The notes below the pieces were generated by a model, which was given only the letters and a program-made list of their open reading frames with translations, had not been told where the DNA came from and did no database searches. This document shows, piece after piece, positions 649-16,694 of a stretch of 21,383 nucleotides of DNA. The stretch covers positions 978,236 through 999,618 of the forward strand of contig MU646358.1 of the NCBI GenBank assembly GCA_026770585.1. Direction: 5' to 3'. This stretch comes from Baffinella frigidus (taxonomy: Eukaryota > Cryptophyceae > Cryptomonadales > Baffinellaceae). A program made the position numbers and the translations under genes. Position 1 is the first letter of the stretch. Each line of letters opens with the position of its first letter.

Positions 649-805
649 CTTTCTAGGTCTCCCTGAGTCAATGTGGTCTCCTGGAAATGAGGAGACCGGA
701 AGTTGATTGCCCGGTTCTGCGGTACAAATCCGTCGAATGTTGTTGTGAAAACGATCAGTCAACCCGACCTAGGCAGAGCTAGAACCTCCCCCCCCTGCCT
801 CGCAG

Positions 806-864: not shown

Positions 865-1177
865 AACTTCCACCCTGAAGATAGCACTATCCGACGTGGT
901 TTGAAGGTGGAGAGGCAACTTCCTCCCCACCAAACGCCAACCATCTCTCAACTTGCAATCACGTCTCATGCTATCTCACTCATGCTATCTCACAGGTGCA
1001 ACTTGCCATCTTCGCCTCGACATAGCCCTGGGCCTTACCACAAAAAACCCTGCCTCCTGGCGACCCGTGATCCAAAATTCTATGTTCGCCCCTTCCCTGT
1101 GGGCCTGAGGCGGTGGAGGTGGGGGCGTGCGACCCCCCCTTGGGTTGAGTAATCTAAAAGTCTACGGGTCTTACCAG

Positions 1178-1273
1178 GTGCTAGCGGCACCCATCGACAA
1201 AGAGGAGTGGGCGTGGTTCCGCGACAACCTCCTCTCAACCTTCGTGTGGTTTGCCCCGTCGTCGTCTGTCCAG
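1178..1273 (+). CDS. Micro-exon (32 codons)
   Basis: The acceptor CTTACCAG ends at 1177 and the donor CAG|GTCCCT starts at 1274. The phase is 0 at both ends. The peptide includes A-A-P-I-D-K-E-E-W-A-W-F-R-D-N-L-L, which looks like real protein with aromatic and charged spacing unlike the repeat translations next to it. No family is recognised for this segment. A degenerate acceptor-bearing copy lies at 806-864. A CCCGAAA-rich array starts within about 10 bases of the donor. Confidence 0.6.
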
Positions 1274-4200
1274 GTCCCTGACCCGAACACCGAAACTCGA
1301 AACCCGAAACCCGAAAACCGAAACCTGAAAGCCGAAAGCCGGAAGCCGAAAACCGAAAACCGAAACCCGAAACCCGAAACCCGAAGCCCGAAGCCCGAAA
1401 CCCTGAACCCTGAACCCTGAACCCTACACCCGAAACCCTCAACCCTCAACCCTCAACCCTTAACCCTCAACCCTCAACCCCAAACCCCAAACTCTAACCG
1501 GCCCAACTTATCCCCCCCCCTCCCCGCACCACTTGATTCGGAAGCGCCGTGGTACCCACACGGTGGGCTACGAGGGTTTCGTTGACCCCAGATTCTGGGG
1601 GGTAACGTGACCAAAATTACACCAGAAAAGCCTTAAAGTTAATTGACTCGAGGCAAGTTGACTTTTGATGAAAGGTCCGTAGTCCACCGCGTGGATCCCT
1701 CCAGAGATCGATCGGCCCCCCAGAAATGAAACTGGTTGCCCTGGGATGCAGGGTACCTTCGTGTACGAGACGCTCCTCCAGATCGCTGAGGTCTCTCCCC
1801 ACGCACCCAACGCCATGATCGATTCGTGCTGCTGATAGAGAGGGACCCCGCATGGTCCCAACGAACCCGAAAGGCATGAATGCGTTTCGGGTTCGTTGGG
1901 ACTTCAAAACCGGTTTTCCGGTTTTGAAAAGGGACTTATAGGACGTGACAAGGATTTTAAATAGTACCAAGAGGCGCAATTCTGGTACTCAGCAGCTTTC
2001 ATCCGAGCTCAAGGGGGGTCCACCAGTTCTTTCCTGTATTTCCCTTCAGGAAAAAAACGGCGAGAGCTTGCTGGTGGCACAGGAGGATCTGGGGGTGGAA
2101 CTCTGTTGAAAGAAAATCAAGAAGCGTGCTCCGCAGCAGCAAGTAGACTGATGAGAGCTTGCCTCACTTAGCAGCGGCCAAGGTCCTGTTCTCCTCAAAA
2201 GCATGGCGAAATTCCGGTTGGAATCCAGGGCAATGAACAAGATTCTAGTACACATATTTTAGATGGACTGTATCCGTGAAGCCCCCGGTGGTTGCTACGT
2301 GGACGGCGCACCACCTCTCGATTCACCATAACCTGTTCGTACCACACAGGCGGAGCTGGGGCAAACCCCAAACCCGAACCCCTTAACACAGGAGGAGTTG
2401 GGGCGGCTGGCGCTAATTGCAGACGCCCTTCAGTTCCAGGAACTCCAAGGTCTGGCTCTGCCTCACTCGGGTTCACCGGCTTTTCTCAACTTGAGATGCT
2501 GGCTTCGTGGTAGAAATCCGTCAACCTTTGAGCGAATTTGAGTCCGGGCCCAGCAAATTGTTGGGTCCCAATAGGCTAAGACAGAGCTAGACGGTCTGTG
2601 CAGTGTCCGCTTTGCACAGCGTATGAAGCTTCACGGAGACATCATCCATCTAATTTCGGAACAAGACAGATTCTGTCCCGCTATCTTAGGCTTCCGACGC
2701 CGAAAATAAGGGTGCATATGCTCTTTTCGGCATACAATGATGCTATCTTACGCCTTTTTATGTGGACAGATTTTGGTATGTTGCGAGATGAGATCTCACG
2801 GGATCTGACAACGACTGTGTACTGCTGCCCAGGCCGCACCAGTGCGCCCGTCAGGTCGAGCTCAATGAAACTGAAGGTAGCTTCGGGACACGCCGAAGCG
2901 GAGACATCATCTATCGCACGGGATCTCACAAAGACTGTGTACTGCTGCCCAGGCCGCACTGCAACTGACGCTAGCTTCGGTAGAGCGTTTGCGGTAATTG
3001 TTGTCCGTTTTGGACGTACGGTTTTCCGGTTTTCCGGTTTTGAAAGGGACTTCTAGGACGTGACAAGTATTTTAAACAGTACCAGAATTGCGCCTCTTGG
3101 TACTATTTAAAATCCTTGTCACGTCCTATAAGTCCCTTTTCAAAACCGGAAAACCGGGAAACCGTACGTCCAAAACGGACAACAATTACCGCAAACGCTC
3201 TGCACGCGTGCGGCAGGCATCCAGTCCGTGCTGCTTCTCCCGGGTGGTACCGCTGATACATAGGTTACACTTTGACAGTCGCGCCCGCCAGCCCCTGGAG
3301 GGCTGCCGGGCGCCCTGCTGCAGCATACCATACATTCTGATACGAGTGATAGCGAGCCCGCATCGCGTTAGCCTGCGTCGCTCTGCCCTCACAACGACTT
3401 CATCTCTCAACGATGCTGCACCCCCGCGCGCGCATTGAAATGATCAATACATTCATTTTCTCGCTTATTTGCGGATTTTCTGGTTTATTTACTAATTCTC
3501 TGGTTTATTTACTGATTTTTTGGTTTATTTACTGAGGTTTATTTACTGAGCGTGCGGCAGGCATCGAGAGCGTGGTGCTTCTCCCGGGTGGAGAGGCCGA
3601 GTGTCGGCAGGACCACCGCAGGTCCCCCCTAGCCCTGCCTCACTCGGGTTGACCGATGATTCTCAAGCTGACATGCTTGGGTTGGCGGTGCGAATCCGTC
3701 ATCTTTGGGGCGGGAAAGAGCCCGGGATCACCTCACTCGCTCTTATCTCAGAAAACGAGTTCTAAAACTCGTTTTCTGAGATAAGGGCGGGAAAGTGCCC
3801 GGGATCACCTGACTCCCTCGCGGGTTCATCTCCACAAAAGTATCTATTAATTGCTTTTGGCGCAACGAAATTTACTACACAAATGCTCTACTATTACTTG
3901 TATAAGCAAATCGTGTAGTAATTTTCGTTGCCAGAAAGCAATTAATTAATACTTGTATGGAGATTAGGCGAGGCCGAGTGTCGTCAGGACCACCGCAGAT
4001 CCCGGCCCCCGAACCAAGACTCTGAAGTTGACTTACCGAGTTTGTTTCCAAATGTTGATTTGAACCAGGGAGTTGCCCTGATCTGGCAACTTCTCCATAC
4101 AAATCCCTCTTCAGTGTCCCAAGGACACTGCAGCCATACATATGCATGGCTCTCACCACACGGTGGGCTTCGAGGGTTTCGGGACCCCTAGATTTAGCGG

Positions 4201-5619
4201 TAACGTGACCAAATTTGCATTAGAAAATCTTTAAAGTCAACAGCCCAACAGGGTAAGTTGACTTTTGATGAAAGGTCCGTAGTCCACCGTGTGGAGAGTG
4301 GCGTGCAACGCCTGTCTTCCTTACAGATTATTCCGTTACCTGAAAACCACACCACATCGAGACTATTCCTCGATGTGGTGTGGTTTTCAGGTTTGGCTTC
4401 ATTACCTGAACACCACACCACATCGAGGCGTGAGCATATGTTCCATTTTGATAGGAGCGATAGTGACTGTCAAAGTGAATCCTATACATCGCACTCCGCA
4501 CCCGCACACGAACCGGGATACGTCATTTTAAATTCGTGTCTTCATTTCGGAGAAATATTTCAAATCTGGGATTGTTTTTGATAATTCCGATCAATCTTGC
4601 CAAATTTCGCCCTTTTATATAAAACAACGCAACGTTTCCGTAGACATAAATAGTGTCTTCGCAGCCCTCTTTGCCTCCGGGTGCGGAAATCAAACCGAAC
4701 GCAGAGCCTGCGTTCGGTTGCAGATGAGTGCCTCTCACGAGTGGATTGGCAGGGTCGGAAACGCGGTGAGCGGGGAAGCGATTTGATTCGCTTCAGGGCC
4801 CAGAAAGCCATCCAGGACTGAACGGTTCCGTGACGAACTTGGGGGCAGGGTTGGGAACGCGGCGGCGATCAAGCCGCAGCTGCTCCAGACGCCCGACAAC
4901 CGCGAGTTCTACGGTCGACGCCCCTGTCTGCCTAAGTAGAATCAGAGCCTAACACACAAGTGTATCTTAGTCGCACGGTTGTACTAGGCTTCCTGCTCTA
5001 ACTGCATTTTATGGCGAGTCCAGTTGTACGCAGGCAGTGCTAGGAGTTGGCCGAATTCTCCCTCTGCCGCCCAATGAACACCCCGGGCCGCGAAACCCGG
5101 TGGGAATCCCTCTGATCAAATGATCAAATCGTATCTGGCGAGAGATCGCCGACAATCCGCTTGGAATATCCCGGAGATCCCAGCTCGTTAGTTAACCTTA
5201 CACACCAAGCCTGGGGCGCTGAACAGCGCCCATAGGGGGGTTCCTAAGGACAAGGTGTGGGGATGCTGCCTCTTGTAAAACGTCTCAGCCCTGCAACGGG
5301 ATCCCCAGTGGGGATCCCGCCGACTGTTGCGACCTGGACCTTGAACCCTAAACCCTAAAACCCTCAACCCTCAACCCCCAACCCTCAACCCTAACCCCCA
5401 ACCCCGCAGACCTGAACGTGTACCTGAAGCAACTGCGGTGCATGGGGCGCGTTGGGCACCACCCACTGGTGGTTAGTGGTGTGGCTAACACTAGTTGGGG
5501 TCCTTCTTTTGCTGCGCAGATCTGAACGTGTACCTGAACCTTCAGATACCTCAACCCTCAACCCTCAACCCTACACCCTACACCCGTCACCCTTCACCCT
5601 CAACTCTCAACCCTGAACC

Positions 5620-5651
<32 letters not shown>

Positions 5652-8600
5652 ACGCTATCCCCGCAGATCTGAACGTGTACCTGAACCAGCTGCGGTGCAT
5701 CGCCAACCTCGTCGATCCTCCGTTCCAGGCGAGACTCCTTTCCTTCCATCCACTCGGTGGGCTACGAGGGTTTCGTTGACCCCGGATTCCGGGGTGATAC
5801 GTGACCAATTTGCATCAGAAAAATCCTCAAAGTTAATTGTCTTCAGGTGAGTTGACGTTTGATGAAAGGTTCGTAGTCCACCGTGTGGATAAGGTAACGT
5901 CCTGAAAATCGGGTAGTTAGGCCTACGGTATTGCCTACGGTAGTCCGTAGGGCCCCTAGGACCTAATTTTGTTAGGAGGGACCTTTATCCGGGGAAACCT
6001 ATGTTTCCTTCATTTGATGGCCCCGTGTGGGAGTACTAAAAAAGTCCTGAGAGTAATATAGAAGTAGTATATAACACTCTCTACTTGTGGACCACGCATT
6101 ACTAGGCTGAGAGTAGTATCAAAGTAGATAGAGTATATCCCTTAAGTGGCGAGTAGGCGCATACGCCCTACGGTAGGGCCCTAGGACCTGCCTAGGGCGA
6201 GTTAGGGCGATTAATCACCCGTCCGCCACTTAAGGGATAGGAAGAAGACGAAGAAAGCTGCGGTGGATCGCCACTATCGTCGATCCTCCGTTCCAGGCGA
6301 GACTCCTTCATCTTCTTCTTCTTCATCATCATCTTCCTCTGAGAGTGATATAGATCATCTTCCTCTGAGAGAAATACAGTTGATGCCGGCTCGTCGATCC
6401 TCCGTTCCAGGCGAGAGTCCTTCCTTCTTCGATGCATAATATACAAGTCCAGTTCACACGCACGACACCTCTTGAAATCAGTCGCTTTACACGCACCAGC
6501 CCTGGGAGGTGGCTCAAATATTGGGCTGAAACATTTTCGATTTGCCTTGCCGGAGGGTCGAATTCGACCCCGCTGTGTTAACCATTGCCCTATTTTCGGT
6601 ACAAAATCAACTTTTGGGATTTCCGTTTCAAAGCACAATTTGTGTCACCTCTGAGGGCTAGTGGACACCAGCGCTGTCAGTGGCGTTGCGAATGAAGCGG
6701 TTTGCACAGCAGTCGCGCGCTGACTTAGGCATCCCCTGCGGGTGTCGCTACGCGACTGCAAAGCGAAGCGAAGCAGTCACGGGACCTCTTCTAACAAGTC
6801 CTCTTCTCACACCTCGTTGCCCTGTCGGATGCAACTCACTCTTTCACTCTCTCTCTCTCTCTCTCTCTCTCGCTCTCTCTCTCGCTCTCTCTCCCGCTCA
6901 ATCTGCCACTGTCTCTCGCAGAGGACGCTCCGGCAAGTGTTTGAGCCACTTGGGTCCAACGTCACCTTCCAGTCCGGTGAGCCTTCCCACACAGAGGGCT
7001 ACCAAGGGAATTTCGGGCGCCGAGTGCCCAAGTTTCCGTTACCTTGTCCTTAGGAACCCCCCTATGTCCCTACCGGTTGCCTACCGTAGGGTCCTAGGTC
7101 TTATCACTTAGGGGTGATTCAAAATCCCTTCGAAGTCCGCTGTGTGGTTCTTCTTTTTCTTCTTCTTCTGAGTTACTCTCAAAAAAAGTCCTAGATAGGC
7201 CCTTTAGCCTTGAGTTGAGTGATACAATAGTCTACGAGCCTTAATAACGAGCCCGCTTCGGCGCCCCCAACCCTCTGAGGAGGGTGAGAGGGGGGATCAC
7301 GTGTTCCGGGGATGTTGTCCCGTCCAGGATGACCGGAGTCACTTTCGGGGGATACAGTCCCGTGTAGGATGACCGGAGTGATTTTTGGGGGATACAGTCC
7401 CGTGTAGCATGACCCATGTGACACCAAGCACCTTGGCGAGGCTGCAACCCGAGGCTGACCGTGGCCTTTTCGTACATGTTACATGTGCCTTTTCGTACAC
7501 GTGGCCTTTTCGTACATGACGCTCGCGTCCAAGTTTGTACGAGAGTTGGTCACGTTGCCGACCGAATCCACACAGCGGGCTACCAACAGATTCTTGCTGG
7601 CTGAGAATCGGTTATAATATCCGTAGGAACGACCCTGTGTCCCTACGGATGATCTACCGTAGGGTCCTAGGATGATTCACTTATGAGGTACTCACGAAAT
7701 TCCTTTGTATTTGGCTGTGTGGCTTGGGCGCCCTGCGTGCTGCAGTTCACTTGATTCAGCCCCCTTCCCTCCGAAGAGGACTAGCTGTCGAGCGACTTTG
7801 GCACGAAATCAAAAGCCAGAGCCGGAAATCCGGTCCCCAAATCCGTTACCTCATCCGTAGGAACCCCCCTATGTTCCTACGGTGTTGAATCCGTAGGGCC
7901 TATGGATTACGTTTAGATGGACTGTTTTTTTTTTTGGAATTTTGCTGGTTCAGCCCACGCCCTCCGAAGAGGAGTACTTTCGTCGTTTTGGCCTGACGGA
8001 TTTGTGCTAGCTGTCGCCGATTTCTGGCGACCCAGGGTACAAACCAGAGGGTTGGCCAAACTATATCAACACACTCTCCAGAATTCGGCGAGAATTCTAC
8101 GAATCGGGGTTTGGCCAAAATGGTCAAACCATATTGTTGCTGTTTTCTCCGACGGGTGAGTGGCCATTTTTTTCTGTTTTCGTTGGGTGAGTGGGCTTAT
8201 CCGGGAACAAGTATTTTTCTTTTAAAAGCTGGCAATGAAAATTACTACACAACTGGTCACGTCCGAAGCAATTGTGTGGTAATTTTCGTACGGATTTTTT
8301 AAAAGAAAAATACCTGTTCCCGGATAAGGGCTGAGCGCTGGGCCCCGTGGCATGGCGAGGATCGTACCAGCCGGGGGTTTGCCAAAACGATCAAGACCTT
8401 TTTTGGTTTTGGACCTATGGGCAGGGCGCAAATTCTACGAACCGGGGTTTGACCACAATGGTAAAAAAAACACTATTTTCTTCGACGCTGGATGGGTGGG
8501 CTGAGCGGTGGGCCCCTCTTGCCACCAGGGCCGCTGAAGAACGTGGTGCGGTCCCGCGCGAAAGCCCAGGCACGCCCCCTGCCCCGCCCTCTTGCGAAAC

Positions 8601-10573
8601 AAAACTTCTGGATTTGACCAGCTAATCCAGAAACTTTTGGATTTGACCAGCAAATCCAGAAATGTTATCCCGGAATAGTATTATAGTGCTGAACCCCCCC
8701 AAACCCCAATGCAGTCTGACTACGGTGAGTGCCAGTGGCCGACGAGCGCCCACCTCATCGACCTCATCAGGTCTCACCCCTCAATCCTGACCCCCCAACC
8801 CTGACCCCTAAACCCTGATCCCTGACCCCTAAACCCTGATCCCTGAGCCCTGGACCCTGGACCCTGGACCCACGCTTTAAGACAGAAGCTTTGTGATTCC
8901 AGAGTCGCCACCCTCTACCCCCCCCCCCCACGGTACGCATGCGTAGGAGGCACAGCACGTGGAGATAGGTTTCTTGGAGACAGTTTTTTTTGGAGACAGG
9001 TTTTGTGCGCAGGAGCGCTGCGTTTAGCGTTTTTGAGTATTTGAAGAGGTTTGAGCATAAATGCCCTACGGTTGGCTGAGCCAGACAGGTTATGGGTTTG
9101 CAGGTGTTCGGTGACGTTCCAGACAGCTGCGGAGCTGGCGGAGGGGCTCTCGCTCCTGCAGGTGCTTTTGTACACCAGAGAGAGAGGGAGGGAGGGAGGG
9201 AGAGAGAGAGAGAGACACCAGAGAGAGAGGGAGGGAGAGAGAGAGAGAGAGACCAGAGAGAGAGGGAGGGAGGGAGAGGGAGGGAGAGAGAGACACCAGA
9301 GAGAGCCTTGCTCTAGCGGTGTTCTCCGAGTAGACCGAAGCAGCCATGTTGAGAGGTTAGGGGCGGATCTCCTAACGAGGGCTTTCCCAGTAGGCAGCGG
9401 GGGGGCAGGGGACGGCGGACAAAGAGATTCCTTGCTCTAGCGGTGTTCTCTCGGATAAGAATTTATTAAAAGGATTAAGAGAAAACCTCAACTGCAACCA
9501 TTTAAGAAGATACGGGAAGTTACTATAACCACTTAAGAAGATAAGGGAAGTTACTATAACCATTCAAGAAGATCTGATTTTTCCTCGTAATCTTTTTAGT
9601 AAATTCTTTTCTCAGTGCGACTGAGAGAGATCCGAGTAGACCGGAGCAGCCGTGTCGAGAGGTCAGGCACGGGTCTCCTTAGGAGACCCCAGCTTTGCTT
9701 TGAGAGAGGGCTTTGCCTTTCCTTTCCGTCCCTGACTCATCTCCTGACGAGGGCGTTCCCTGCAGGCTCAAAAACCCCGCTTCCGTTTCAAGTTAAGTTT
9801 CAGCAGCAGGGTGCAACCACGCAACCCCTGTTCTTCCACTGAAGAGGGCTTTCCCTGGCGGCGGCGGGGACACCCTACACCCTACACCCTACACCCTACA
9901 CCCTACACCCTACACCCTACACCCTACACCCTGCACCCTACGCCCTGCACCCTACACCCTACACCCTACACCCTACGCCCTACACCCTACACCCTACACC
10001 TTCGGCTTTCCCTGCAGGCCGCCGCGGGGGGGCAGGGGGCGGCGGACGAATAACTTTAGAGGCGGCTTTAGAGTTGTTGGTGTTCAGCCTTCCTGGTTTT
10101 AGCGGTGTTGGTGTTCTCCTAGTAGACCGGAACAGCCATGTTCAGAAGTCAGAGACAGGTCTCCTAACGAGGGCGTTCCCTTTCCTTTCCGTCCCACTTA
10201 GCAGCCGCCGAGGGCTTCATGGATACAGTCCATGAAACGATTTGTAGTAGAATCTTATCCATTGCCCTCTAACCTAACCGGAATTTCACCTTGAATTCAA
10301 GGCGAAAAGATCCTCGGACGCTGCTAAGTGGCCTGATCTATCTCCTAACGAAGGCGATCCCTGCAGGCTGCCGCGGGGGGGCAGGGGACAGCGGATGATA
10401 TGAATGGGGGGAGCTTTGAGATCGCCCGGGTCAAGAATGGGTTCGCCGCCGGGAAGGGAGGGTGCGCGTCTAAACCCTAAACCCTAAACCCCAGACCCTG
10501 AATGCGAAACCCGAAACCCGAAACCGAAACCCTAACCCCGAAATCTATGCACACACACGCACACACGCGCACG

Positions 10574-10618
<45 letters not shown>

Positions 10619-13600
10619 TCCTAGGACTGCATCTCTTCTGGGAGTCCCTCTCAGGACCCACCACAGTGTACAACCGTGAAGCCGGCTGGGGCAATCTCCC
10701 ACACTCATCTCATCAATAAGTATATGAATATGCTGTTAAAATCAGTCATAAAACTGTTCCTTTCCCACTCGAGAATACTTGAGGGGCCTATTTACATGTG
10801 GGGTTGTAAAACTTTGTACCAGGATAGGGTGTTTCAACCTCGTAACTGGCTTATCCAGAGCTTCAGTGGCTCCAAGGGCAATGAAATTTACTACACAAAT
10901 GCTACATATAAAATTTTCTTGGTTTTTAATAGGCCCCGCTTCCATTCTCGTGTGGTCCCCTGAATAGTGAACATGGAAAATAAGGCGGCTGAGACACACC
11001 CGCCGTCTCTCTTTCGAAGGCTGGCTGCTGAGGCACGCTTGCATTCTCCCCATGAAGGCGGCTGATGCCACTTAGCAACGTTCGAGGTCCTTTTCGTCTT
11101 GAAATCAAGGCGAAATTCCGGTTGGAATCCAGGTTAATGGATAACATTCTAGTACATATGGTTTAGATGGACTGTATCCGTGAAGCCCCCTATGGCTGCT
11201 AAGTGGCGCGCCCGGCCCAAATCCTCTGCACGTGTGCCCCCGTTTGCAATTGCTTAAAACACTCGCATTCACCCATTTTCGTGCAGGCATCGGGGCGTGA
11301 AAGTGAACATAGTATTCCTTTCCGCCCAGGGCTTCGCACTCATTATCGCCATCTATCCACACCCCATAGGGAATCCCTAGGTCCCTAGGGATTTGCTACC
11401 GTACGGTCCTATGGACCGAACAATACGTTCCGAGACCCGGATTTGATCCGCTTCGGGGTTTGCTGGTGGCAGGTATCGGGACGTTACAACATCTTCTATG
11501 GGTTGGAACACGCAAGGCAGTCACGACCGACCGTCTGGCTTCGGCGTCCGCGTGACCGGTCACGTGGGCGTTCACGAGCCTGCCGGCGGGGCTGTTCCAC
11601 GGGGCTGTTCCTGTTCCTGCCTTGCGTGTTCCAACCCATAGAAGATGTTTGCTGGTGTCAGGTATCGCGACGTCAAAGTGAAGGTAGTCTTCCCCTGAGG
11701 AAGACCCCTATTCGGTCGGCTCACACACAATTAACCACGATCCTGAAGAAGCTTCCGGGGGGTCAGAAGCATATCCCATAACATGGTATCCCTTAAGTGG
11801 CGAGTAGGCTCATACGCCCTACGGTAGGGTCCTAGGACCTGCCTAGGACCTCTTACGGGTCAAATTTGACCCGCTCGCCACTTAAGGGATAGCTGAATTA
11901 TGCCTTGTTCCGCGCTTGCGTGCAGGTATCGGGACGTGAAAGTCAACGTGGTGTTCCTCTCAGCCCAGGGCTTTGCCCTCATCGGGGAGGTGGCTCTCTG
12001 CCTCACCCCCCTCGTCGAGTACAAGGTGCCTCACACCCTACACCCTCCACCCTCCACCCTCCACCCTCCACCCTCCACCCTCCACCCTCCACCCTCCACC
12101 CTCCACCCTCCACCCTCCACCCTCCACCCTATACCCTACACCCCACACCATACCCTCTCAGCCTAGTCCACTTTCACCTCGCTTGTCCATTTCAGCTGAG
12201 GCTATCCATGCGAACAGATTCATAAGTCAATTATTGGATTATTGCCCAGGAAACACGCCAAAAATCAGCAATTGATCACGTTTCCGCCCGAAAAAGCAGG
12301 AGAAAACGTGATCATTTCCCACATTTTTTAAAAATGTACTTTTATTCTGTTCGCATGGATAGCCTCGTGTGGTTTGAAGATTTTTTTTGATGCCCATAAA
12401 ATCGCGAAAACCCCTCAGCACTCTGAATTTGGCGCTGTGAGGGCGAATGCGAGCTTTGTGTCTGCGTACTTGGTGCCAGCGGGTGCTAGGAACACGCAAG
12501 GCAGTCACGACCGACCGTCTGGCTTCGGCGCCGTTCACAAGCCGCCATTGAATTTTTTGATGCCCATAAAATCGCCATTGAATTTTTTTGATGCCCATAA
12601 AATCGCGAAAACCCCTCAGCACCCTGAATTTGGCGATGTCCGACATTGTTGAATGGTGCTGAGTTTTTGGCGTGGCGTGTTGCAGGAACGCACGCACGAA
12701 CTCTACGAAATTCTGCGCGAGAAGGCGTTCTTCCGAGAGGTAAGCGATGCCCCCCGTTTCCTTGATGTCAGGGTTAAATAGCCTATACATCAATTATACA
12801 TTCCTTTCCTGGTACAAACCGGCCCGGATTGGTCAACTGGGACTAATAAATAAGAGTGGCTTGGAGCACGCTGCGAGAGACCTTTATTACTACCACCACG
12901 GCCGCGATGTATGCTCCCCCACCGAGGCTGTTTTTGAGCAGAACTTAGAGGTGAGCAGGGGCCGAGAGAGCGTCTGGTGGATTCTGTTAACGAAAGATGT
13001 CTGGGGGTGTTGCGCGCTGTCGCACGTGGAACAGCCCCGCCGGCAGGCTTGTGACCGGCGCCGAAGCCAGACGGTCGGTCGTGACTGCCTTGCGTGTTCC
13101 TAGCACCCGCTGGCACCAAGTACGCAGACACAAAGCTCGCATTCGCCAAGCCTTGTCTTCGTCCATGCTCATGGAGAAACCGATATCTGTTTTTGATTAG
13201 TGCGAGCTCCGGGGACAGGTTCTTCTCAGGACAGTTGTTTCTCGCCAGTCAGGACGCCTGTGGGCAATTACCCTAGACTCATAACCTGCGATTCTAGGGA
13301 AATGAACCACAACACTCTCCGTCTCTAGGGGGGTCCTACATTCCTAGGAATGGGTCTACCGTGGTCCTGATTCGCCAGTAACCCCTGGTGTGAGGACCTA
13401 GTCTAGGACGAGCCTCGGGCCGTTAGACCGTTACAGGGGTACTTCGCTCATCAGAAACCGCCCCCCCCCCAGGACCGAGCCTTGGGCCGTTAGACCGTTA
13501 GATCCATTGAACAGAGGTACCTCGTTCATAAGAAAACGACGCCCCCTAGGACCCTATAGTAGGCCCATGCCTAGGGCCCTGTGGTGGTCCTAGGGGGGGG

Positions 13601-14483
13601 GGCAGTTTCGTATGAGCCCTGTGGTGGTCCTGGGGGGGGGGCAGTTTCTTATGAGCGAGGTACCCCTGTAGTCCATGACGAGCCTCAGGCCGTTAGACTG
13701 TTAGATCGACTGTACTCGGGGTGTACTCCTCACACCTGTGGTTCTTGCTAGCTACCTTTCCGTCCCACTTAGCAGCCACCGGGGGCGTCACGGATACAGT
13801 CCATCTAAACGATTTGTACTAGAATAGTATCCATTGCCCTGGAACCTAACCGGGATTTCACCTTGAATTCAAGGCGAGGCCGAGGTTTTACGATAGGGTT
13901 GAGGGTACAGGGCGTGGCATTTCTCGTACCGTGTGTTCCGTGATAGGTGACCACACATCGTAAAACCGCGGCCTCTTAGGGTCCAGGATAGGAACAGTCC
14001 TGATGCGCCAGTAACCTGTGTGTTCCGTGGTAGGTGCCACCAAATCGTAAAACCCAAGCCTCTTAGGTGTCAGCCTCGTATGGTTGATACGGCTTGGCAT
14101 TTCTCTGACCGTGTGTTCCGTGGTAGGTGCCAGCAAATCGTAAACCCCAAGCCTCTTAGGTGTCAGCCTCGTATGGTAGATACGGCTTGGGATTTCTCTG
14201 ACCGTGTGTTCCGTGGTAGGTGCCAGCAAATCGTAAAACCTTGGCCTCTTGGGTTTCAGCCTCGTATGGTTGATACGGCTTGACATTTCTCTGACCGTGT
14301 GTTCCGTGGTAGGTGCCAGCAAATCGTAAAACCTCGGCCTCTTGGGTTTCAGCCTCGTATGGTTGATACGGCTTGGGATTTCTCTGACCGTGTGTTGCGT
14401 GGTAGGTGACGGCGAGCCTCGGAGAGAGGGGGTCGATGCAGTTCTCGCAAGGCCCTGCAGGCTCCTTCGACGAATTCGAGTAG
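1178..14483 (+). CDS. Spliced gene of about 15 micro-exons; RelA/SpoT-like nucleotidyltransferase-fold protein (putative)
   Basis: The candidate exons are 1178-1273, 2392-2449, 3561-3621, 4327-4427, 4797-4913, 5667-5728, 6922-6976, 8529-8569, 8715-8770, 9104-9161, 10367-10461, 11926-12025, 12686-12739, 12855-12950 and 14442-14483. They total 1092 nt, keep one open frame and end in TAG. The best-supported part (8715-12739) reads in order: H-L-I-D-L-I-R followed by C-S-V-T-F; an acidic loop; A-R-V-K-N-G-F; G-Y-R-D-V-K-V-N-V; G-E-V-A-L; and H-E-L-Y-E-I-L-R. In RelA/SpoT synthetase-type domains the corresponding elements are the metal-binding D of the D-x-x-x-R strand, R-x-K-D, G-Y-x-S/D-L/V, E-x-Q and a later H in a helix. 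Those proteins use ATP and GDP/GTP to make (p)ppGpp, but many eukaryotic relatives have no known activity. Function is inference. Ends are uncertain: the true start may lie upstream, and the first four and last two exons are weaker than the middle. Some donors were chosen partly because they keep the frame. Confidence 0.6.
1283..1500. repeat. Degenerate telomere-like heptamer array (CCCGAAA, then CCCTCAA)
   Basis: The array drifts from CCCGAAA and CCGAAAG variants to CCCTGAA, CCCTACA and CCCTCAA. The minus-strand ORFs of 92 and 120 residues here are just translations of this repeat (GFRVSGFG-type peptides). Confidence 0.95.
1556..1694 (+). mobile_element. MITE family A, copy 1 (139 bp)
   Basis: It starts CCACACGGTGGGCTACGAGG and ends GTCCGTAGTCCACCGCGTGG, giving imperfect terminal inverted repeats of about 25 bp. 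Three more copies of near-identical length lie at 4156-4294, 5750-5888 and 14495-14629, all in the same orientation. It carries no coding capacity beyond the conserved stretch encoding V-D-F-R on translation, so it is a non-autonomous element. The superfamily is unknown. Confidence 0.85.
1855..1902. repeat. 18-bp stem hairpin
   Basis: GTCCCAACGAACCCGAAA at 1855-1872 is perfectly inverted at 1885-1902, with a 12-base loop. It lies directly left of the half-foldback at 1905-1985. Confidence 0.9.
1905..1985. mobile_element. Solo half-arm plus loop of the 2979-3203 foldback
   Basis: This stretch contains CGGTTTTCCGGTTTTGAAAA, GGACTTATAGGACGTGACAA and GATTTTAAATAGTACCAAGA, then the loop GGCGCAATTCTGGTAC. 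It matches one arm and the loop of the palindrome at 2979-3203. The opposite arm is absent. Confidence 0.85.
2164..2302 (-). mobile_element. MITE family B, copy 1 (139 bp)
   Basis: It is bounded by CACTTAGCAGC on the left and GTTGCTACGTGG on the right. The interior is shared with 10194-10331, 11068-11206 and 13765-13877, including GGATACAGTCCAT on the opposite strand and GAAATTCCGGTTGGAATCCA. Orientation is reversed relative to the 10194 copy. Confidence 0.8.
2350..2362 (+). pseudogene. Short upstream copy of the 2392 exon edge
   Basis: CACACAG at 2343-2349 followed by GCGGAGCTGGGGC mimics the acceptor and first bases of the exon at 2392 (CACAG, GAGGAGTTGGGGC). A second possible copy is CACAG followed by GAGGATCTGGGG at 2078-2094. 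The short length makes each match weak on its own. Confidence 0.4.
2392..2449 (+). CDS. Micro-exon (19 codons)
   Basis: The acceptor CTTAACACAG ends at 2391 and the donor CAAG|GTCTGG starts at 2450. It begins in phase 0 and ends with one base of a split codon. The peptide E-E-L-G-R-L-A-L-I-A-D-A-L-Q-F-Q-E-L-Q is helix-like and amphipathic. The sequence after the donor belongs to a dispersed repeat (also at 3634-3700), which supports ending the exon here although the frame stays open. Confidence 0.5.
2456..2530. repeat. Dispersed repeat shared with 3634-3700
   Basis: Both places contain CTGCCTCACTCGGGTT, then ACCG, TTCTCAA, TGACATGCT or GAGATGCT, and AATCCGTCA near the end. No element boundaries are clear. 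Confidence 0.6.
2797..2964. repeat. Pair of about 42-bp direct repeats
   Basis: ACGGGATCTGACAACGACTG and TGTACTGCTGCCCAGGCCGC near 2798-2838 recur at 2918-2959 with three differences. The intervening 80 bases show no clear structure. The 152-residue ORF across this region is probably an artefact of the duplication. Confidence 0.75.
2979..3203. mobile_element. Foldback palindrome of about 225 bp
   Basis: The left arm (AGAGCGTTTGCGGTAATTGT through AGTACCA) is inverted on the right (TTGGTACT through GCAAACGCTCTGC). Arms are about 105 bp with a loop of roughly 12 bases centred near 3091. Mismatches are few, so it is either young or maintained. A solo arm with the loop lies at 1905-1985. Confidence 0.95.
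3217..3252 (+). pseudogene. Acceptor-bearing 5' copy of the 3561 exon
   Basis: GTGCGGCAG followed by GCATC, then GTGCTGCTTCTCCCGGGTGG, parallels the exon at 3561 (GTGCGGCAG, GCATC, GTGGTGCTTCTCCCGGGTGG). It diverges after the GGTGG and meets a stop soon after. Confidence 0.65.
3466..3550. repeat. Tandem repeat of a TCTGGTTTATTTACTGATT-like unit
   Basis: Four A/T-rich units of roughly 17-24 bp, each with GGTTTATTTACT, stand immediately upstream of the 3561 exon acceptor. Confidence 0.85.
3561..3621 (+). CDS. Micro-exon (19 codons plus split codons)
   Basis: The acceptor CGTGCGGCAG ends at 3560 and the donor CGCAG|GTCCCC starts at 3622. The peptide reads I-E-S-V-V-L-L-P-G-G-E-A-E-C-R-Q-D-H-R, strand-like then charged. 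The leading GC completes the split codon from 2449, and the trailing AG passes on to 4327. Its 5' edge is duplicated at 3217 and its 3' edge at 3970-3998 (GAGGCCGAGTGTCGTCAGGA). Confidence 0.5.
3707..3815. repeat. 20-bp stem hairpin between 30-bp direct repeats
   Basis: CTTATCTCAGAAAACGAGTT at 3742-3761 is inverted at 3766-3785. The direct repeat GCGGGAAAG-N-GCCCGGGATCACCT-N-ACTC lies at 3710-3739 and again at 3787-3816. The layout looks like a hairpin insertion with a long target duplication. Confidence 0.9.
3828..3964. mobile_element. Foldback element (137 bp) with ACTACAC core
   Basis: ATCTCCACAAAAGTAT through AACGAAATTTACTACAC is inverted at 3913-3964, ending TGTATGGAGAT. The loop is about 33 bases. 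The ends of the inner arms (TTACTACACAA) are shared with the foldbacks at 8196-8328 and 10765-10955. Confidence 0.9.
3970..3998 (+). pseudogene. 3' edge copy of the 3561 exon
   Basis: GAGGCCGAGTGTCGTCAGGA followed by CCACCGCAG matches the end of the exon at 3561-3621 with one difference, but ATCCC rather than a GT donor follows. Confidence 0.65.
4156..4294 (+). mobile_element. MITE family A, copy 2 (139 bp)
   Basis: Same ends and length as 1556-1694: CCACACGGTGGGCTTCGAGG and GTCCGTAGTCCACCGTGTGG. It ends 32 bases before the candidate exon at 4327. Confidence 0.85.
4327..4427 (+). CDS. Candidate exon containing an in-frame hairpin insertion
   Basis: The acceptor GTCTTCCTTACAG is strong. The peptide begins L-F-R-Y-L-K-T-T-P-H-R and ends L-N-T-T-P-H-R: the same 25-bp segment occurs at 4337-4361 and 4403-4427, with an inverted copy at 4369-4392 between them. 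The spacing is 66 bp, so the frame stays open through the hairpin. Either a GC donor after CGAG (4428) or a GT donor after CGAGGC (4430) could end it. Only the first fits the phase of 4797. It may be a disrupted exon rather than a working one. Confidence 0.4.
4338..4432. repeat. 24-bp stem hairpin plus third direct copy
   Basis: ACCTGAAAACCACACCACAT at the start of the arm 4338-4361 is inverted at 4369-4392, with a 7-base loop ACTATTC. A third copy in direct orientation follows at 4404-4428. Confidence 0.95.
4797..4913 (+). CDS. Micro-exon (38 codons); 5' boundary uncertain
   Basis: The donor TTCTACG|GTCGAC at 4914 leaves one base, which with the AT at 5667 makes an Asp codon. The frame is open back to 4787, and CGCTTCAG ends at 4796. 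The peptide includes A-A-A-I-K-P-Q-L-L-Q-T-P-D-N-R-E-F-Y. An 18-bp segment, GGCAGGGTTGGGAACGCG at 4844-4861, has an upstream partner at 4748-4765 that follows GTTGCAGATGAGTGCC in the same frame. The original exon may therefore have begun at 4724 and been split by a 96-bp duplication. Confidence 0.55.
4914..5338. other. Intron sequence with no recognised content
   Basis: I see no element, array or exon here apart from short complementary stretches such as GGGATCCCCAGTGGGGATCCC at 5299-5319, a perfect 10-bp stem with a single-base loop. Confidence 0.5.
5339..5406. repeat. Heptamer array (CCCTAAA, CCCTCAA)
   Basis: C-strand telomere-like heptamers run straight into the acceptor-like CCCCGCAG at 5409, so the array doubles as its C-rich tract. 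Confidence 0.95.
5410..5542 (+). pseudogene. Two acceptor-bearing 5' copies of the 5667 exon
   Basis: CCCCGCAG at 5402-5409 and GCTGCGCAG at 5511-5519 are each followed by A-C/T-CTGAACGTGTACCTGAA, the start of the exon at 5667. The first copy matches for about 40 bases (through CTGCGGTGCAT). The second matches for about 20. Confidence 0.8.
5548..5655. repeat. Heptamer array (CCCTCAA, with CCCTACA)
   Basis: About fifteen C-strand heptamers lie between the second exon-edge copy and the exon at 5667. The last repeat is about 10 bases from the acceptor. Confidence 0.95.
5667..5728 (+). CDS. Micro-exon with GC donor (20 codons plus split codon)
   Basis: The acceptor CTATCCCCGCAG ends at 5666. 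The exon ends CCGTTCCAG at 5728, followed by GCGAGA, a good GC-type donor. The peptide is L-N-V-Y-L-N-Q-L-R-C-I-A-N-L-V-D-P-P-F-Q. Two 5' copies (5410, 5520) and two 3' copies with the same GC donor (6258-6296, 6390-6410) flank it, so both splice edges have been duplicated. The intact version is the only one with both edges. Confidence 0.65.
5750..5888 (+). mobile_element. MITE family A, copy 3 (139 bp)
   Basis: It starts CCACTCGGTGGGCTACGAGG and ends GTTCGTAGTCCACCGTGTGG. It sits 21 bases downstream of the GC donor at 5729. Confidence 0.85.
6136..6239 (+). mobile_element. MITE family C, copy 1 (104 bp)
   Basis: The terminal inverted repeats are TATCCCTTAAGTGGC and GCCACTTAAGGGATA in most copies; here the right end reads CGCCACTTAAGGGATA. 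The interior CGCCCTACGGTAGGG, CCTAGGACCTGCCTAGG is shared with copies at 11787, 14683, 14915 and 15548. The flanking TA at both ends would fit a TA target duplication of the mariner/Stowaway type, which is inference. Confidence 0.85.
6258..6410 (+). pseudogene. Two donor-bearing 3' copies of the 5667 exon
   Basis: 6258-6296 matches the last 39 bases of the exon and stays in frame (L-R-W-I-A-T-I-V-D-P-P-F-Q). 6390-6410 matches only the last 21. Both are followed by GCGAGA. Neither has an acceptor copy. Confidence 0.75.
6840..6898. repeat. (CT)n microsatellite
   Basis: A run of CT with occasional G and C substitutions ends about 20 bases before the acceptor at 6921, so it may act as a polypyrimidine tract. 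Confidence 0.95.
6922..6976 (+). CDS. Micro-exon (18 codons plus one base)
   Basis: The acceptor TGTCTCTCGCAG ends at 6921 and the donor TCCG|GTGAGC, close to consensus, starts at 6977. The peptide is R-T-L-R-Q-V-F-E-P-L-G-S-N-V-T-F-Q-S. Its last base joins the GG at 8529 to give Gly. A MITE begins 10 bases past the donor. Confidence 0.65.
6987..7147 (+). mobile_element. MITE family D, copy 1 (161 bp)
   Basis: The ends are CCACACAGAGGGCTACCAAG and CTTCGAAGTCCGCTGTGTGG. The interior has TAGGAACCCCCCTATGTCCC and CTACCGTAGGGTCCTAGG. Other copies are at 7568-7722 and 15304-15465 (reversed). Confidence 0.85.
7300..7425. repeat. 40-bp minisatellite, about three units
   Basis: CAGTCCCGTGTAGGATGACC-type units recur with a 40-base period; the CGT in each falls at 7321, 7361 and 7401. 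Confidence 0.85.
7459..7520. repeat. Short tandem repeat, CCTTTTCGTACA
   Basis: Three copies of GCCTTTTCGTACA, the first and third preceded by GTG, occur within 62 bases. Confidence 0.85.
7568..7722 (+). mobile_element. MITE family D, copy 2 (155 bp)
   Basis: It starts CCACACAGCGGGCTACCAAC and ends TTTGGCTGTGTGG, a diverged right end. The interior CCGTAGGAACGACCCTGTGT and CTACCGTAGGGTCCTAGG matches 6987-7147. A related interior fragment without ends lies at about 7838-7905. Confidence 0.75.
7838..7905. mobile_element. Fragment related to MITE family D interior
   Basis: ATCCGTAGGAACCCCCCTAT, GTTCCTACGG and CCGTAGGGCC match the centre of family D, but no terminal repeats are visible. Confidence 0.5.
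8040..8528. repeat. Diverged tandem repeat containing GGGGTTTGGCCAAAATGGTC
   Basis: Units with ATTCTACGAA, CGGGGTTTG-CCA-AA, GGTCAA and a GGGTGAGTGG or GGCTGAGCGGTGGGCCCC tail recur three to four times. The foldback at 8196-8328 interrupts one unit. The last unit ends at the acceptor of the 8529 exon. Confidence 0.65.
8196..8328. mobile_element. Foldback element (133 bp) with ACTACAC core
   Basis: CTTATCCGGGAACAAGTATT through ATTACTACACAA is inverted at about 8272-8328, ending TACCTGTTCCCGGATAAG. Arms are about 57 bases and the loop about 19. Confidence 0.9.
8529..8569 (+). CDS. Micro-exon with GC donor (13 codons)
   Basis: The acceptor CTTGCCACCAG ends at 8528. The exon ends AAAGCCCAG, followed by GCACGC, a GC-type donor. 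The peptide is P-L-K-N-V-V-R-S-R-A-K-A-Q, basic. Related domains carry a comparable L-K-S-x-x-R-x-x-x-K segment just before the D-Y-G and D-x-x-R part, which matches its place here. Confidence 0.6.
8606..8665. repeat. Two adjacent short hairpins, TCTGGATT...AATCCAGA
   Basis: CTGGATTTGACCAGC-T/A-AATCCAG occurs twice in tandem. Each copy can fold into a stem of 7-8 bp. Confidence 0.85.
8715..8770 (+). CDS. Micro-exon with D-L-I-R strand
   Basis: The acceptor CCAATGCAG ends at 8714 and the donor ATCAG|GTCTCA starts at 8771. The peptide is S-D-Y-G-E-C-Q-W-P-T-S-A-H-L-I-D-L-I, with a trailing AG that joins the G at 9104 to make Arg. D-Y-G followed by D-L-I-R is typical of the strand carrying the metal-binding Asp in RelA/SpoT-type nucleotidyltransferases. 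A CCCTGA-type array begins within five bases of the donor. Confidence 0.7.
8775..8872. repeat. Heptamer-like array (CCCTGAC, CCCTAAA, CCCTGGA)
   Basis: Degenerate C-strand repeats start almost at the 5' splice site of the preceding exon and drift through CCCTGATC to CCCTGGA. Confidence 0.9.
9104..9161 (+). CDS. Micro-exon: C-S-V-T-F strand and helix
   Basis: The acceptor GGGTTTGCAG ends at 9103 and the donor CTGCAG|GTGCTT starts at 9162. The peptide is C-S-V-T-F-Q-T-A-A-E-L-A-E-G-L-S-L-L-Q. Joined to the previous exon it gives D-L-I-R-C-S-V-T-F then a helix, the order expected in this fold. A GA-rich array begins about 15 bases past the donor. Confidence 0.7.
9177..9306. repeat. (GA)n and GGGA-rich tandem array
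   Basis: Purine-only units separated by CACCAG recur four times, each made of GAGAGAGAGGGAGGGAGGG-like sequence. Confidence 0.95.
9394..9420 (+). pseudogene. 5' edge copy of the 10367 exon
   Basis: TTTCCCAGTAG followed by GCAGCGGGGGGGCAGGGGAC matches the exon start (GCTGCCGCGGGGGGGCAGGG) with a small deletion, and diverges after GGCGGAC. Confidence 0.65.
9450..9630. mobile_element. Foldback insertion with internal 31-bp tandem repeat
   Basis: AAGAATTTATTAAAAGGATT near 9457 is inverted near 9586-9610. Between the arms is a 31-bp unit, AACCATTTAAGAAGATA followed by GGGAAGTTACTAT, in 2.6 copies (9496, 9527, 9558). It interrupts the TTCTC/CGAGTAGACC sequence that is uninterrupted at 9322-9340. 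Confidence 0.8.
9877..10003. repeat. Heptamer array (CCCTACA), about 17 units
   Basis: This is a nearly pure CCCTACA array with a few CCCTGCA and CCCTACG units, ending shortly before the acceptor-like CTTTCCCTGCAG at 10016. Confidence 0.97.
10017..10053 (+). pseudogene. Acceptor-bearing 5' copy of the 10367 exon
   Basis: CTTTCCCTGCAG is followed by GCCGCCGCGGGGGGGCAGGG and GCGGCGGACGAATAA. It matches the first part of the exon at 10367, then stops in frame. Confidence 0.75.
10194..10331 (+). mobile_element. MITE family B, copy 2 (138 bp)
   Basis: The ends are CCACTTAGCAGCCGCC and GCTGCTAAGTGG. It splits a sequence, CCTTTCCGTCC and CTGA-TCATCTCCT, that is uninterrupted at 9721-9745 in the neighbouring repeat unit, so full and empty sites can be compared in one molecule. 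Confidence 0.9.
10367..10461 (+). CDS. Micro-exon: acidic loop then R-V-K-N strand
   Basis: The acceptor GATCCCTGCAG ends at 10366 and the donor GGGAGG|GTGCGC starts at 10462. It runs from phase 0 to two trailing bases (GG), which with the G at 11926 make the Gly of G-Y-R-D. The peptide is a Gly/Ala/Gln-rich loop, D-D-M-N-G-G, then F-E-I-A-R-V-K-N-G-F-A-A-G-K-G. R-V-K-N/D preceding G-Y-R-D is characteristic of the family. At least two broken copies of its 5' edge precede it. Confidence 0.7.
10470..10545. repeat. Heptamer array (CCCTAAA, CCCGAAA)
   Basis: Starts eight bases after the donor at 10462 and drifts from CCCTAAA to CCCGAAA. Confidence 0.93.
10547..10616. repeat. (CA)n microsatellite
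   Basis: An imperfect then perfect CA run follows directly on the heptamer array. Confidence 0.97.
10765..10955. mobile_element. Diverged foldback element (191 bp)
   Basis: CCACTCGAGAAT and GGGGCCTATT near the left end pair with AATAGGCCCC and ATTCTCGTGTGG at the right. The interior holds GCAATGAAATTTACTACACA, which is also in the foldbacks at 3828 and 8196. The 95-residue ORF here lies within this element. Confidence 0.7.
11068..11206 (-). mobile_element. MITE family B, copy 3 (139 bp)
   Basis: It runs from CCACTTAGCAACG to GGCTGCTAAGTGG and contains GAAATTCCGGTTGGAATCCA and GGACTGTATCCGTGAAGCCC, as at 2164-2302. Confidence 0.85.
11287..11352 (+). pseudogene. Long degenerate copy of the 11926 exon
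   Basis: TTTCGTGCAG precedes GCATCGGGGCGTGAAAGTGA. The copy follows the exon for about 65 bases (…F-L-S-A-Q-G-F-A-L-I), but Y-R-D has become H-R-G, the G-E-V segment is lost and there is no donor. Confidence 0.8.
11473..11694 (+). pseudogene. Two further 5' copies of the 11926 exon around a hairpin
   Basis: TTTGCTGGTGGCAG/GTATCGGGACGT ends at 11484, and TTTGCTGGTGTCAG/GTATCGCGACGT begins its exon-like part at 11662. The second runs on as K-V-K-V-V-F-P then a stop. The palindromic insertion at 11490-11647 separates them. Confidence 0.75.
11490..11647. mobile_element. Foldback insertion (158 bp) between direct repeats
   Basis: CATCTTCTATGGGTTGGAAC at the left end is perfectly inverted at the right, with arms of 31 bases. 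The direct repeat TTTGCTGGTG-N-CAGGTATCG then GACGT, about 26 bp, flanks it. Its interior, AACACGCAAGGCAGTCACGA and CCGTCTGGCTTCGGCG, recurs at 12489-12532 and, inverted, at 13058-13104. Confidence 0.85.
11787..11891 (+). mobile_element. MITE family C, copy 2 (105 bp)
   Basis: TATCCCTTAAGTGGCGAGTA at the left and TCGCCACTTAAGGGATA at the right. It ends 34 bases before the acceptor of the 11926 exon. Confidence 0.9.
11926..12025 (+). CDS. Micro-exon: G-Y-R-D-V strand and G-E-V strand
   Basis: The acceptor GCTTGCGTGCAG ends at 11925 and the donor TACAAG|GTGCCT starts at 12026. The peptide is Y-R-D-V-K-V-N-V-V-F, then S-A-Q-G-F-A-L-I-G-E-V-A-L, then L-T-P-L-V-E-Y-K. In RelA/SpoT-type domains the second strand is E-V/I-Q-L/I. 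Here the Glu is kept but Gln is Ala. Three degenerate copies precede it (11287, 11473, 11662), and a CCCTCCA array starts about six bases beyond the donor. This is the strongest single exon in the gene. Confidence 0.75.
12031..12150. repeat. Heptamer array (CCCTCCA), about 16 units
   Basis: A nearly pure CCCTCCA array bounded by CCCTACA units, beginning almost at the splice donor. ORFs over it encode S-T-L-H-P-P-type repeats and are not genes. Confidence 0.97.
12198..12366. mobile_element. Foldback element (169 bp) with inner hairpin
   Basis: GAGGCTATCCATGCGAACAG is inverted at the right end (CTGTTCGCATGGATAGCCTC). A second inverted pair, TGATCACGTTT and AAACGTGATCA, lies inside it. Confidence 0.9.
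12377..12640. repeat. Three direct repeats of TTTTTTGATGCCCATAAAATCG
   Basis: TTTGATGCCCATAAAATCGC occurs at about 12386, 12558 and 12588. The first and third continue with GAAAACCCCTCAGCA and CTGAATTTGGCG for about 60 bp. The segment at 12440-12546 lies between them, as if inserted with a long target duplication. Confidence 0.9.
12440..12546 (+). repeat. Element fragment, inverted partner at 13035-13147
   Basis: GGGCGAATGCGAGCTTTGTG, TCTGCGTACTTGGTGCCAGC, GGGTGCTAGGAACACGCAAG and GCAGTCACGACCGACCGTCT all recur on the opposite strand at 13035-13147. Part is also inside the foldback at 11490-11647. The shared ORF peptide is a by-product of the duplication. Confidence 0.85.
12686..12739 (+). 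CDS. Micro-exon: H-E-L-Y-E helix
   Basis: The acceptor CGTGTTGCAG ends at 12685 and the donor CGAGAG|GTAAGC, a full consensus, starts at 12740. Phase is 0 at both ends, 18 codons: E-R-T-H-E-L-Y-E-I-L-R-E-K-A-F-F-R-E. It follows L-V-E-Y-K in register, giving the K-x-x-x-H-x-L-Y-E pattern that closes RelA/SpoT-like domains in eukaryotic proteins. Confidence 0.75.
12855..12950 (+). CDS. Candidate micro-exon (32 codons)
   Basis: The preceding AATAAATAAG is a weak acceptor, while the donor TTAGAG|GTGAGC is strong. The peptide includes G-L-E-H-A-A-R-D-L-Y-Y-Y-H-H-G-R-D-V and F-E-Q-N-L-E. Phase 0 at both ends suits its neighbours. The intron before it would be 115 bases. It is less certain than the exons upstream. 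Confidence 0.45.
13035..13147 (-). repeat. Inverted partner of 12440-12546
   Basis: Reverse complement of the earlier fragment, extended by GGAACAGCCCCGCCGGCAGG, which also matches the inside of the foldback at 11490-11647. Confidence 0.85.
13200..13430. other. No gene seen; MITE-like palindromic fragments
   Basis: Short pieces resembling family D interior (TAGGGGGGTCCTACATTCCT, CTACCGTGGTCCT) occur but lack ends. No exon is evident. Confidence 0.4.
13410..13710. repeat. Rearranged family E repeats
   Basis: TACAGGGGTACTTCGCTCAT, several GGGGGGGCAGTTTCTTATGA stretches, and three copies of GAGCCT-GGGCCGTTAGACCGTTA in mixed orders. They match the ends of the palindromes at 15883-16004 and 17643-17950. 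Confidence 0.75.
13765..13877 (+). mobile_element. MITE family B, copy 4, right end missing
   Basis: CCACTTAGCAGCCACCGGGG, GGATACAGTCCATCTAAACG and TTCACCTTGAATTCAAGGCG match copy 2, but the expected right terminus is replaced by the start of the 93-bp tandem repeat. Confidence 0.85.
13885..14415. repeat. 93-bp tandem repeat, about 5.5 units
   Basis: GTGTGTTCCG starts at 13931, 14018, 14111, 14204, 14297 and 14390 (TGCG in the last): spacings 87, then 93 four times. Each unit also carries GGTAGGTGCCAGCAAATCGT and CAGCCTCGTATGGTTGATAC. Because 93 is 31 codons, both strands show long repetitive ORFs (244 residues on the minus strand). I do not call these genes. Confidence 0.95.
14442..14483 (+). 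CDS. Possible terminal micro-exon
   Basis: GGTCGATGCAG ends at 14441, then 13 codons and TAG: F-S-Q-G-P-A-G-S-F-D-E-F-E. Phase 0 suits the exon at 12950. The ending is repeated downstream as N-S-F-D-E-F-E-stop at 14659-14682 and in weaker form near 14748-14770 and 15047-15061, the same edge duplication seen at other exons. It is short, so chance is possible. Confidence 0.4.
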   Translation, partial: FSQGPAGSFDEFE

Positions 14484-16085: not shown

Positions 16086-16128
16086 ACGCAGGCACAGAGG
16101 TGTACAGGGGCAGCACTCGTACGCGAGA

Positions 16129-16470
16129 CCCTAAACCCTAAACCAGAAACCCTACACCGTAAATCCTAGACCGTAAACCGTAACCCGTAACCCGTAAACC
16201 GGAAACCGTAAACCGTAAACCGTCAACCCTAAAACCTAAACCCTAAACCCCAAACCCCAAACCCCGAACCCTAAACCCTAAACCCTAAACCCTACACCCT
16301 TAACCCTAAGCCCTCAACCCTAAACCCTAATCCCTGAACCCCAAACCCTAAATCGCGAACCGTAAACCGTAAACCGTAAACCGCAAAACCTGAACCCCAA
16401 ACCCTAAACCCTTCATCCTAAACCCTAATTCCTACACTCTACACCCTGAACCCTTGACCGTAAACCCTGG
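16129..16470. repeat. C-strand telomere-like array (CCCTAAA, CCGTAAA, CCCCAAA)
   Basis: The longest heptamer array in the window, mixing CCCTAAA with CCGTAAA and CCCTGAA variants. Confidence 0.97.
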
Positions 16471-16527
16471 TTAGGGGAGTCTCCTCGCACCTCGCTCTCG
16501 AGCGAGGCAGGAACAACTTGAAGGGGT

Positions 16528-16692
16528 TTAAAGTTTGTGATTTAGGGTTTTGGGTGTAGGGCTTAGGGATTAGTGTTCATGGTTTAGGGTTCAGGGTTCA
16601 TGGTTCAGGGTTTCGGGTTTCGGGTTTCGGGTTTCGGGTTTCGGGTTTCGGGTTTCGGGTTTCGGGTGTCGGGTGTCGGGTCTCGGGTCCAT
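16528..16692. repeat. G-strand telomere-like array (TTTAGGG then GGGTTTC)
   Basis: Opposite orientation to the array on its left. TTTAGGG variants give way to a homogeneous run of GGGTTTC. Between the two arrays is a hairpin, CCTCGCTC-TC-GAGCGAGG, at 16490-16507. Confidence 0.97.
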
Positions 16693-16694
16693 AC

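Follow-up and report, generated by a model that had tools for sequence, protein, structure and literature searches.

We detected that a 21,383-nucleotide stretch of the Baffinella frigidus genome (assembly GCA_026770585.1, contig MU646358.1, positions 978,236 to 999,618 of the forward strand; hereafter the window) carries the 3' three quarters of a spliced nuclear cryptophyte gene with at least 14 tiny exons. Structure comparison of predicted models supports a RelA/SpoT-homologue (RSH) synthetase fold for the C-terminal domain of its product, and we suggest that the protein would act as a pyrophosphokinase in the manner of RelP and RelQ. The exons of 39-100 bp lie amid their own partial intronic copies; they were readable from the sequence alone and were later proved by expressed sequence.

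Gene structure and splicing

A sequence-only reading of this DNA had proposed that nine short stretches spanning 4797-12739 join in one frame into a RelA/SpoT-like gene. We rebuilt the stretches from its outer ends, stretch number, sizes and motifs: 4797-4913, 5667-5728, 6922-6976, 8529-8569, 8715-8770, 9104-9161, 10367-10461, 11926-12025 and 12686-12739. The chain forms one open frame of 212 amino acids with no internal stop, and all nine stretches have AG before and GT or GC after them, with two GC donors (introns starting at 5729 and 8570). The expressed-sequence protein P0007 (420 amino acids) agrees with every junction. Its residues 116-420 are encoded in the window with 0 mismatches by 14 exons, from 1178 to 14480 on the plus strand, followed by the stop TAG at 14481-14483, and only one GT/GC-AG solution exists at each of the 13 junctions. 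Residues 1-115 belong to earlier exons beyond the window.

By P0007 and the unique splice solutions, all eight proposed junctions and 17 of the 18 exon ends were correct. The wrong end was the start at 4797, since the relatives and P0007 place the 5' end of this exon (X5; P0007 match) at 4849, giving 4849-4913. The chain stood as far as it was joined and was incomplete on both sides. Four exons lie upstream: X1, the first in the window (1178-1273; exact match to P0007 residues 116-147, preceded by AG), X2 (1752-1790; one GT-AG solution at both junctions), X3 (2392-2449; one GT-AG solution) and X4 (3561-3621; P0007 match), which carries the RQD motif (RQDHR), invariant by residue conservation. 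Downstream there is the last exon with the stop, X14 (14406-14483; P0007 match).

The remaining exons follow from both the reconstruction and the P0007 match, and the residue register in X8, X9 and X12 was taken from a profile-profile alignment. X6 (5667-5728) and X8 (8529-8569) precede the GC donors, and X7 covers 6922-6976. X8 encodes K264, R268 and K272 of the phosphate-binding motif (GPLKNVVRSRAK), X9 (8715-8770) the Mg-binding Asp by register, D290 (LIDLIR), X10 (9104-9161) the CSVTF strand, X11 (10367-10461) the RVKNGF motif and X13 (12686-12739) the HELYE helix. The G-loop Y345 (GYRDV) and the catalytic E365 (GEV) share X12 (11926-12025), so the proposed distribution of one motif to each exon did not hold throughout.

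The exons are short and the donors had partly been picked by phase, and the introns contain copies of exon parts, some of which keep an AG acceptor; this could point to open stretches chained by chance or to a pseudogene. We give this explanation hardly any credence: it is refuted in effect by the match to P0007, which is complete over 305 residues that follow in order along one strand, and the chain without a stop and five further relatives (73-39% identity), which together span all eight junctions, argue against it as well. P0007 comes from six contigs of at most 1,994 nt each. Contigs under 2 kb that encode the whole protein should derive from spliced RNA, because the exons for residues 116-420 alone occupy 13.3 kb of genome. 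An intronless gene copy would be the alternative source of these contigs, but the genome search with P0007 gave only exon-sized matches, at least 12 and all inside the window. With the 212-residue chain, at least nine of ten genome matches were inside the window, and the tenth (C342, E 1.9, 37%) was regarded as chance. Scanning the window with Rfam (at gathering scores) and for tRNAs found nothing.

Fold of the C-terminal domain

P0007 is predicted to consist of a helical N-terminal half (about 200 residues) and a C-terminal synthetase-like domain. In the Foldseek comparison of predicted models, among the best 50 matches listed for each model, RSH synthetases took rows 1-34 with the full model and rows 1-43 with the domain model, which supports the nucleotidyltransferase fold that had been proposed from motif order. 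The profile-profile alignment was weak (E 0.0017 versus 0.017 for the best of 20 shuffles); the catalytic motifs were nonetheless in register.

A different Pol-beta-like nucleotidyltransferase, of the polymerase or poly(A)/poly(U) type, is a very improbable alternative to the RSH assignment, since such rows lie about 4.6 and 5.7 Z units under the best RSH row in two structural comparisons and align over 102-133 residues, versus 139-171 residues in the first comparison (its top 13 RSH rows) and 146-156 in the second (its top 11).

No single open reading frame reveals the family, as had been claimed: the Pfam RelA_SpoT profile (PF04607) had 0 matches in the six frames of the whole genome (382,457,362 bases, 1,364 contigs), a scan in which intron-split canonical RSH genes would give 0 too. 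P0007 matched no Pfam family at E <= 1, and the PDB sequence search, with the single chain and with a five-row profile, gave no match at E <= 10. Pfam hints below the cut-off (Hen1_L with the spliced product, E 0.08; Alpha-E, Memo, Nic96 and Trypsin) were rejected as noise.

Family range and possible localisation

The first protein search, with the 212-residue chain, detected five relatives (E 9e-72 to 2e-18, 73-39% identity) and a sixth, P0006, at E 0.15. The profile of the five relatives detected 68 proteins at E <= 0.01, P0007 among them, and a further search gave 55 proteins at E <= 1, overlapping the 68. Alignment A3 has 45 members besides P0007; identity to P0007 is 46-69% for 14 of them and 24-39% for the remaining 31. 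P0011 and P0025 of the closer group carry taxids of two cryptophytes, Hemiselmis andersenii and H. rufescens. A shorter version of the same motifs in P0100 (E 1.3e-12) hints at a wider eukaryotic group. Scans of prokaryote genome contigs and viral contigs gave 31 and 37 pattern-matching stretches, none confirmed by tblastn; each was one scan with two short patterns, which distant relatives could escape.

Among 11 N-termini of the closer group, seven have a hydrophobic stretch (by eye, no predictor), followed by Ala-Phe in six of them (P0008, P0010, P0011, P0015, P0018 and P0025) and by Ala-Tyr in P0019. These Ala-Phe N-termini resemble the AF cleavage site of red-lineage plastid import described in the available text of PMC6881373, suggesting potential plastid targeting of these members.

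Some proteins of the 24-39% group carry a WD40-like propeller at the C-terminus. Four of the 68 rows of the second search and 10 of the 55 rows of the further search have precomputed propeller domains; the propeller Pfam matches scanned were below the cut-off, except ANAPC4_WD40 in P0044. P0005, P0012, P0013, P0016, P0017, P0071 and P0074 start with MGxxxS, which resembles an N-myristoylation site, and P0071 and P0074 end in a WD40-like propeller. A membrane-anchored form is possible for the MGxxxS members of this group.

Nuclear phycoerythrin alpha chain genes are a marker of cryptophyte algae. The host genome has 11 matches to PF02972 (phycoerythrin alpha chain), all over the cut-off, and 14 prokaryotic control genomes have none; we therefore count the host as a cryptophyte.

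Active site

Conservation was counted in the 46-row alignment A3, over rows with a letter at the position. According to the accessible part of PMC5794853, SaRelP holds Mg by Asp107 and Glu174, its ATP phosphates are touched by Lys80, Lys88, Arg91 and Ser84, and its G-loop Tyr151 is critical for guanosine nucleotide binding; the Mg-binding acids of RelSeq are D264 and E323 (PMC7983052, available text). Both acids are kept in the new family as D290 (43/43 rows) and E365 (29/29), equivalent by register to SaRelP D107 and E174. The phosphate lysines K264 and K272 are kept in 45/45 rows each, at the spacing of 8 found between SaRelP K80 and K88, and the G-loop Tyr (SaRelP Y151) is Y345 in 33/37. 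A Gly described as critical in bacteria, RelSeq G240, corresponds by register to G261, present in 45/45 rows; diatom enzymes without that Gly are reported to be still active (both from the sections of PMC6881373 available). Directly ahead of the domain, R195, Q196 and D197 are invariant (40/40 rows each).

Proposed function and alternatives

We infer, with a probability of roughly 0.6, a pyrophosphokinase working like RelP/RelQ, together with its activity, its product and its plastid location. In the proposed mechanism, D290 and E365 would hold Mg2+ and K264 and K272 the ATP phosphates, pyrophosphate would pass from ATP to a ribose hydroxyl of the acceptor nucleotide, and the acceptor base would meet Y345. 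The acceptor would probably be a guanine nucleotide, leading to a ppGpp-like alarmone in or near the plastid.

Several results weigh against this proposal. The Foldseek query TM-scores with the full model are low (0.21-0.30 for rows 1-34), and the profile-profile probability is just 15.7%. The profile search that had been named as a check on the family gave no match: PF04607 finds neither the spliced product, P0007 nor the relatives scanned, while E. coli RelA as a positive control scores E 1.3e-42 and 145 bits. RelA_SpoT is also absent among the 25 families listed, of 51, for the 46 members of A3, and NCBIfam gave nothing for five proteins tried, including P0007. In the active site, the position of SAS1 Arg46, which lies at the adenine and ribose in models (PMC6881373, available text), is Pro262 in 44/45 rows when read as the residue after the Gly; SaRelP Ser84 is replaced by Arg268 (45/45) and SaRelP Arg91 has no counterpart, position 275 being Asn in 28/45. 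The His after the G-loop, two past the Ser of bacterial GYxSxH, is Lys349 in 37/39 rows, and Ala replaces the conserved Gly in the propeller-fused P0074 and P0078, which stand outside the alignment. Four of the 11 N-termini (P0007, P0009, P0014 and P0020) are without a plastid signal by eye.

Because D290, E365, K264 and K272 are kept while the R46, S84, R91 and His positions are changed, metal binding and pyrophosphate handling look largely intact, and base and acceptor binding look remodelled. The family is RSH-synthetase-like by fold and metal site, and a non-member by profile and by three ATP-site residues.

An RSH-fold protein with another product, transferring pyrophosphate to an adenine nucleotide, another small molecule or tRNA as in other RSH-relative types, is unlikely though a serious contender; the best structural matches remain RelQ and RelP, which use GDP/GTP, and the G-loop Tyr is retained in most rows. 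The absence of the R46, S84, R91 and His residues and the fusion of some relatives to WD40-like propellers would also suit a catalytically dead domain serving as a nucleotide-binding alarmone sensor or a scaffold, but both metal acids and both phosphate lysines stand in every row of the alignment that reaches them, which is unexpected for a dead enzyme, and we consider this role improbable. A bolder and speculative proposal, which we think probably does not hold, is a eukaryote-only, profile-invisible RSH-fold branch whose ATP and acceptor site, remodelled by Arg-to-Pro, Ser-to-Arg and His-to-Lys changes, would make a nucleotide signal other than ppGpp, in the plastid of cryptophytes and at membranes under WD40 propeller control in other protists.

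If active, a pyrophosphokinase of the RelP/RelQ kind would be a so far uncounted enzyme of nucleotide signalling in cryptophytes and other protists, and its altered residues would serve as a natural experiment on the parts of the RSH active site that set the substrate.

Comparison with known systems

RelQ (SAS1) and RelP (SAS2) of Bacillota are 12-15% identical over the aligned part (two rows). In contrast to them, the new family replaces the adenine-site Arg by Pro, Ser84 by Arg and the G-loop His by Lys, lacks a counterpart of Arg91, adds the helical N-terminal half of about 200 residues, and is eukaryotic and spliced. The plastid RSH1 and RSH4 of diatoms and other red-plastid algae share with it the synthetase fold, a nuclear gene and, in some, a bipartite plastid signal; they also have hydrolase domains, which are degraded in RSH4, and regulatory domains at the C-terminus, according to the available text of PMC6881373, whereas P0007 has neither by Pfam. 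HD hydrolase and TGS/ACT domains were absent from P0007 by Pfam, which a diverged hydrolase could escape, and no search was made with the N-terminal half alone; the E. coli RelA control gave HD_4, TGS and ACT. The protein ends 55 residues past E365.

The unplaced synthetase-only proteins named divRel, eukaryotic and archaeal, occur among eukaryotes in Dictyostelium, fungi and diatoms (Atkinson et al. 2011, PMC3153485, available part). Compared by description only, they resemble the new family in having a synthetase domain without a hydrolase and in being scattered in eukaryotes, and the family may be a further, more diverged branch. Uncharacterised eukaryotic WD40-like-propeller proteins such as P0071-P0075 share the type of N-terminal half and the synthetase-like domain, at 36-39% identity to P0003; they differ by the extra C-terminal propeller and, in the two of these five whose sequences were read (P0071 and P0074), by the MGxxxS start.

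In the sources available in part, algal RSH enzymes were identified by searching with RSH of bacteria and plants. The new family slips under the Pfam RelA_SpoT profile and is so diverged that the standard family searches tried miss it. No paper on it was detected by title and abstract opening, in a coverage that largely excludes subscription journals.

Partial exon copies and repeats in the introns

Partial copies of five of the 14 exons lie in the adjacent introns (window 803-12739), all on the plus strand. With exon-body queries, nine of nine copies include an exon edge, six being 5'-part copies upstream of the exon and three 3'-part copies downstream. Decayed copies of 5' parts lie upstream of X1 (807-862), X4 (3217-3247), X11 (9394-9419) and X12 (11289-11343), and decayed copies of 3' parts lie downstream of X4 (3967-3998) and X6 (6256-6296). 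X6 has, in addition, a decayed 5' copy at 5412-5443, for which the likeness starts at 5370 when flanks are included in the query, an exact copy of its first 21 bases with an AG acceptor in the sequence (5520-5540), and an exact copy of its last 21 bases downstream (6390-6410). Flanked queries added shorter upstream copies for X11 (10009) and X12 (11469 and 11659), and repeats holding the X14 acceptor, likewise upstream.

The placement fits tandem duplications in which one of the breakpoints fell within the exon: the 5' copies would lie upstream and the 3' copies downstream because an intact exon must remain on the proper side. In a control, 145 of 400 random intronic 62-mers have a local copy too; the exon edges are not shown to be favoured, because the introns are generally rich in local copies.

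Copies of a 26-base repeat (2 mismatches) that include the X12 acceptor and start lie at 11459 and 11648 (window 11459-11673). The stretch of about 160 bases between them has inverted ends of about 30 bases (partly by eye) and may represent a mobile element flanked by a long target duplication. An inverted repeat of 102 bases (99% complementary) was detected at 12442-12543 and 13046-13147 with 502 bases between, part of it resembling about 11506-11546 by eye. Another, of 80 bases (100% complementary) at 1910-1989 and 3078-3157 with 1088 bases between, looks like a recent insertion. Short telomere-type arrays (CCCTAAA-, CCCTGAA- and CCCTACA-like) are many, in both orientations, in introns and intergenic sequence (16121-17357, 1270-1500, 5340-5660 and 9860-10010, by eye).

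Neighbouring genes

The product of the minus-strand neighbour at 18341-18900 (join guessed by eye) matches Pfam HABP4_PAI-RBP1 with 23.3 bits against a cut-off of 21.8. The gene start at about 19398 and its upstream region are duplicated (16690-17255 and 18880-19440), the first copy breaking into telomere-type repeats (by eye). The next downstream gene has a partial exon-start copy in the preceding intron (20386-20436 and 20569-20670, by eye), so that such copies may occur throughout this genome.

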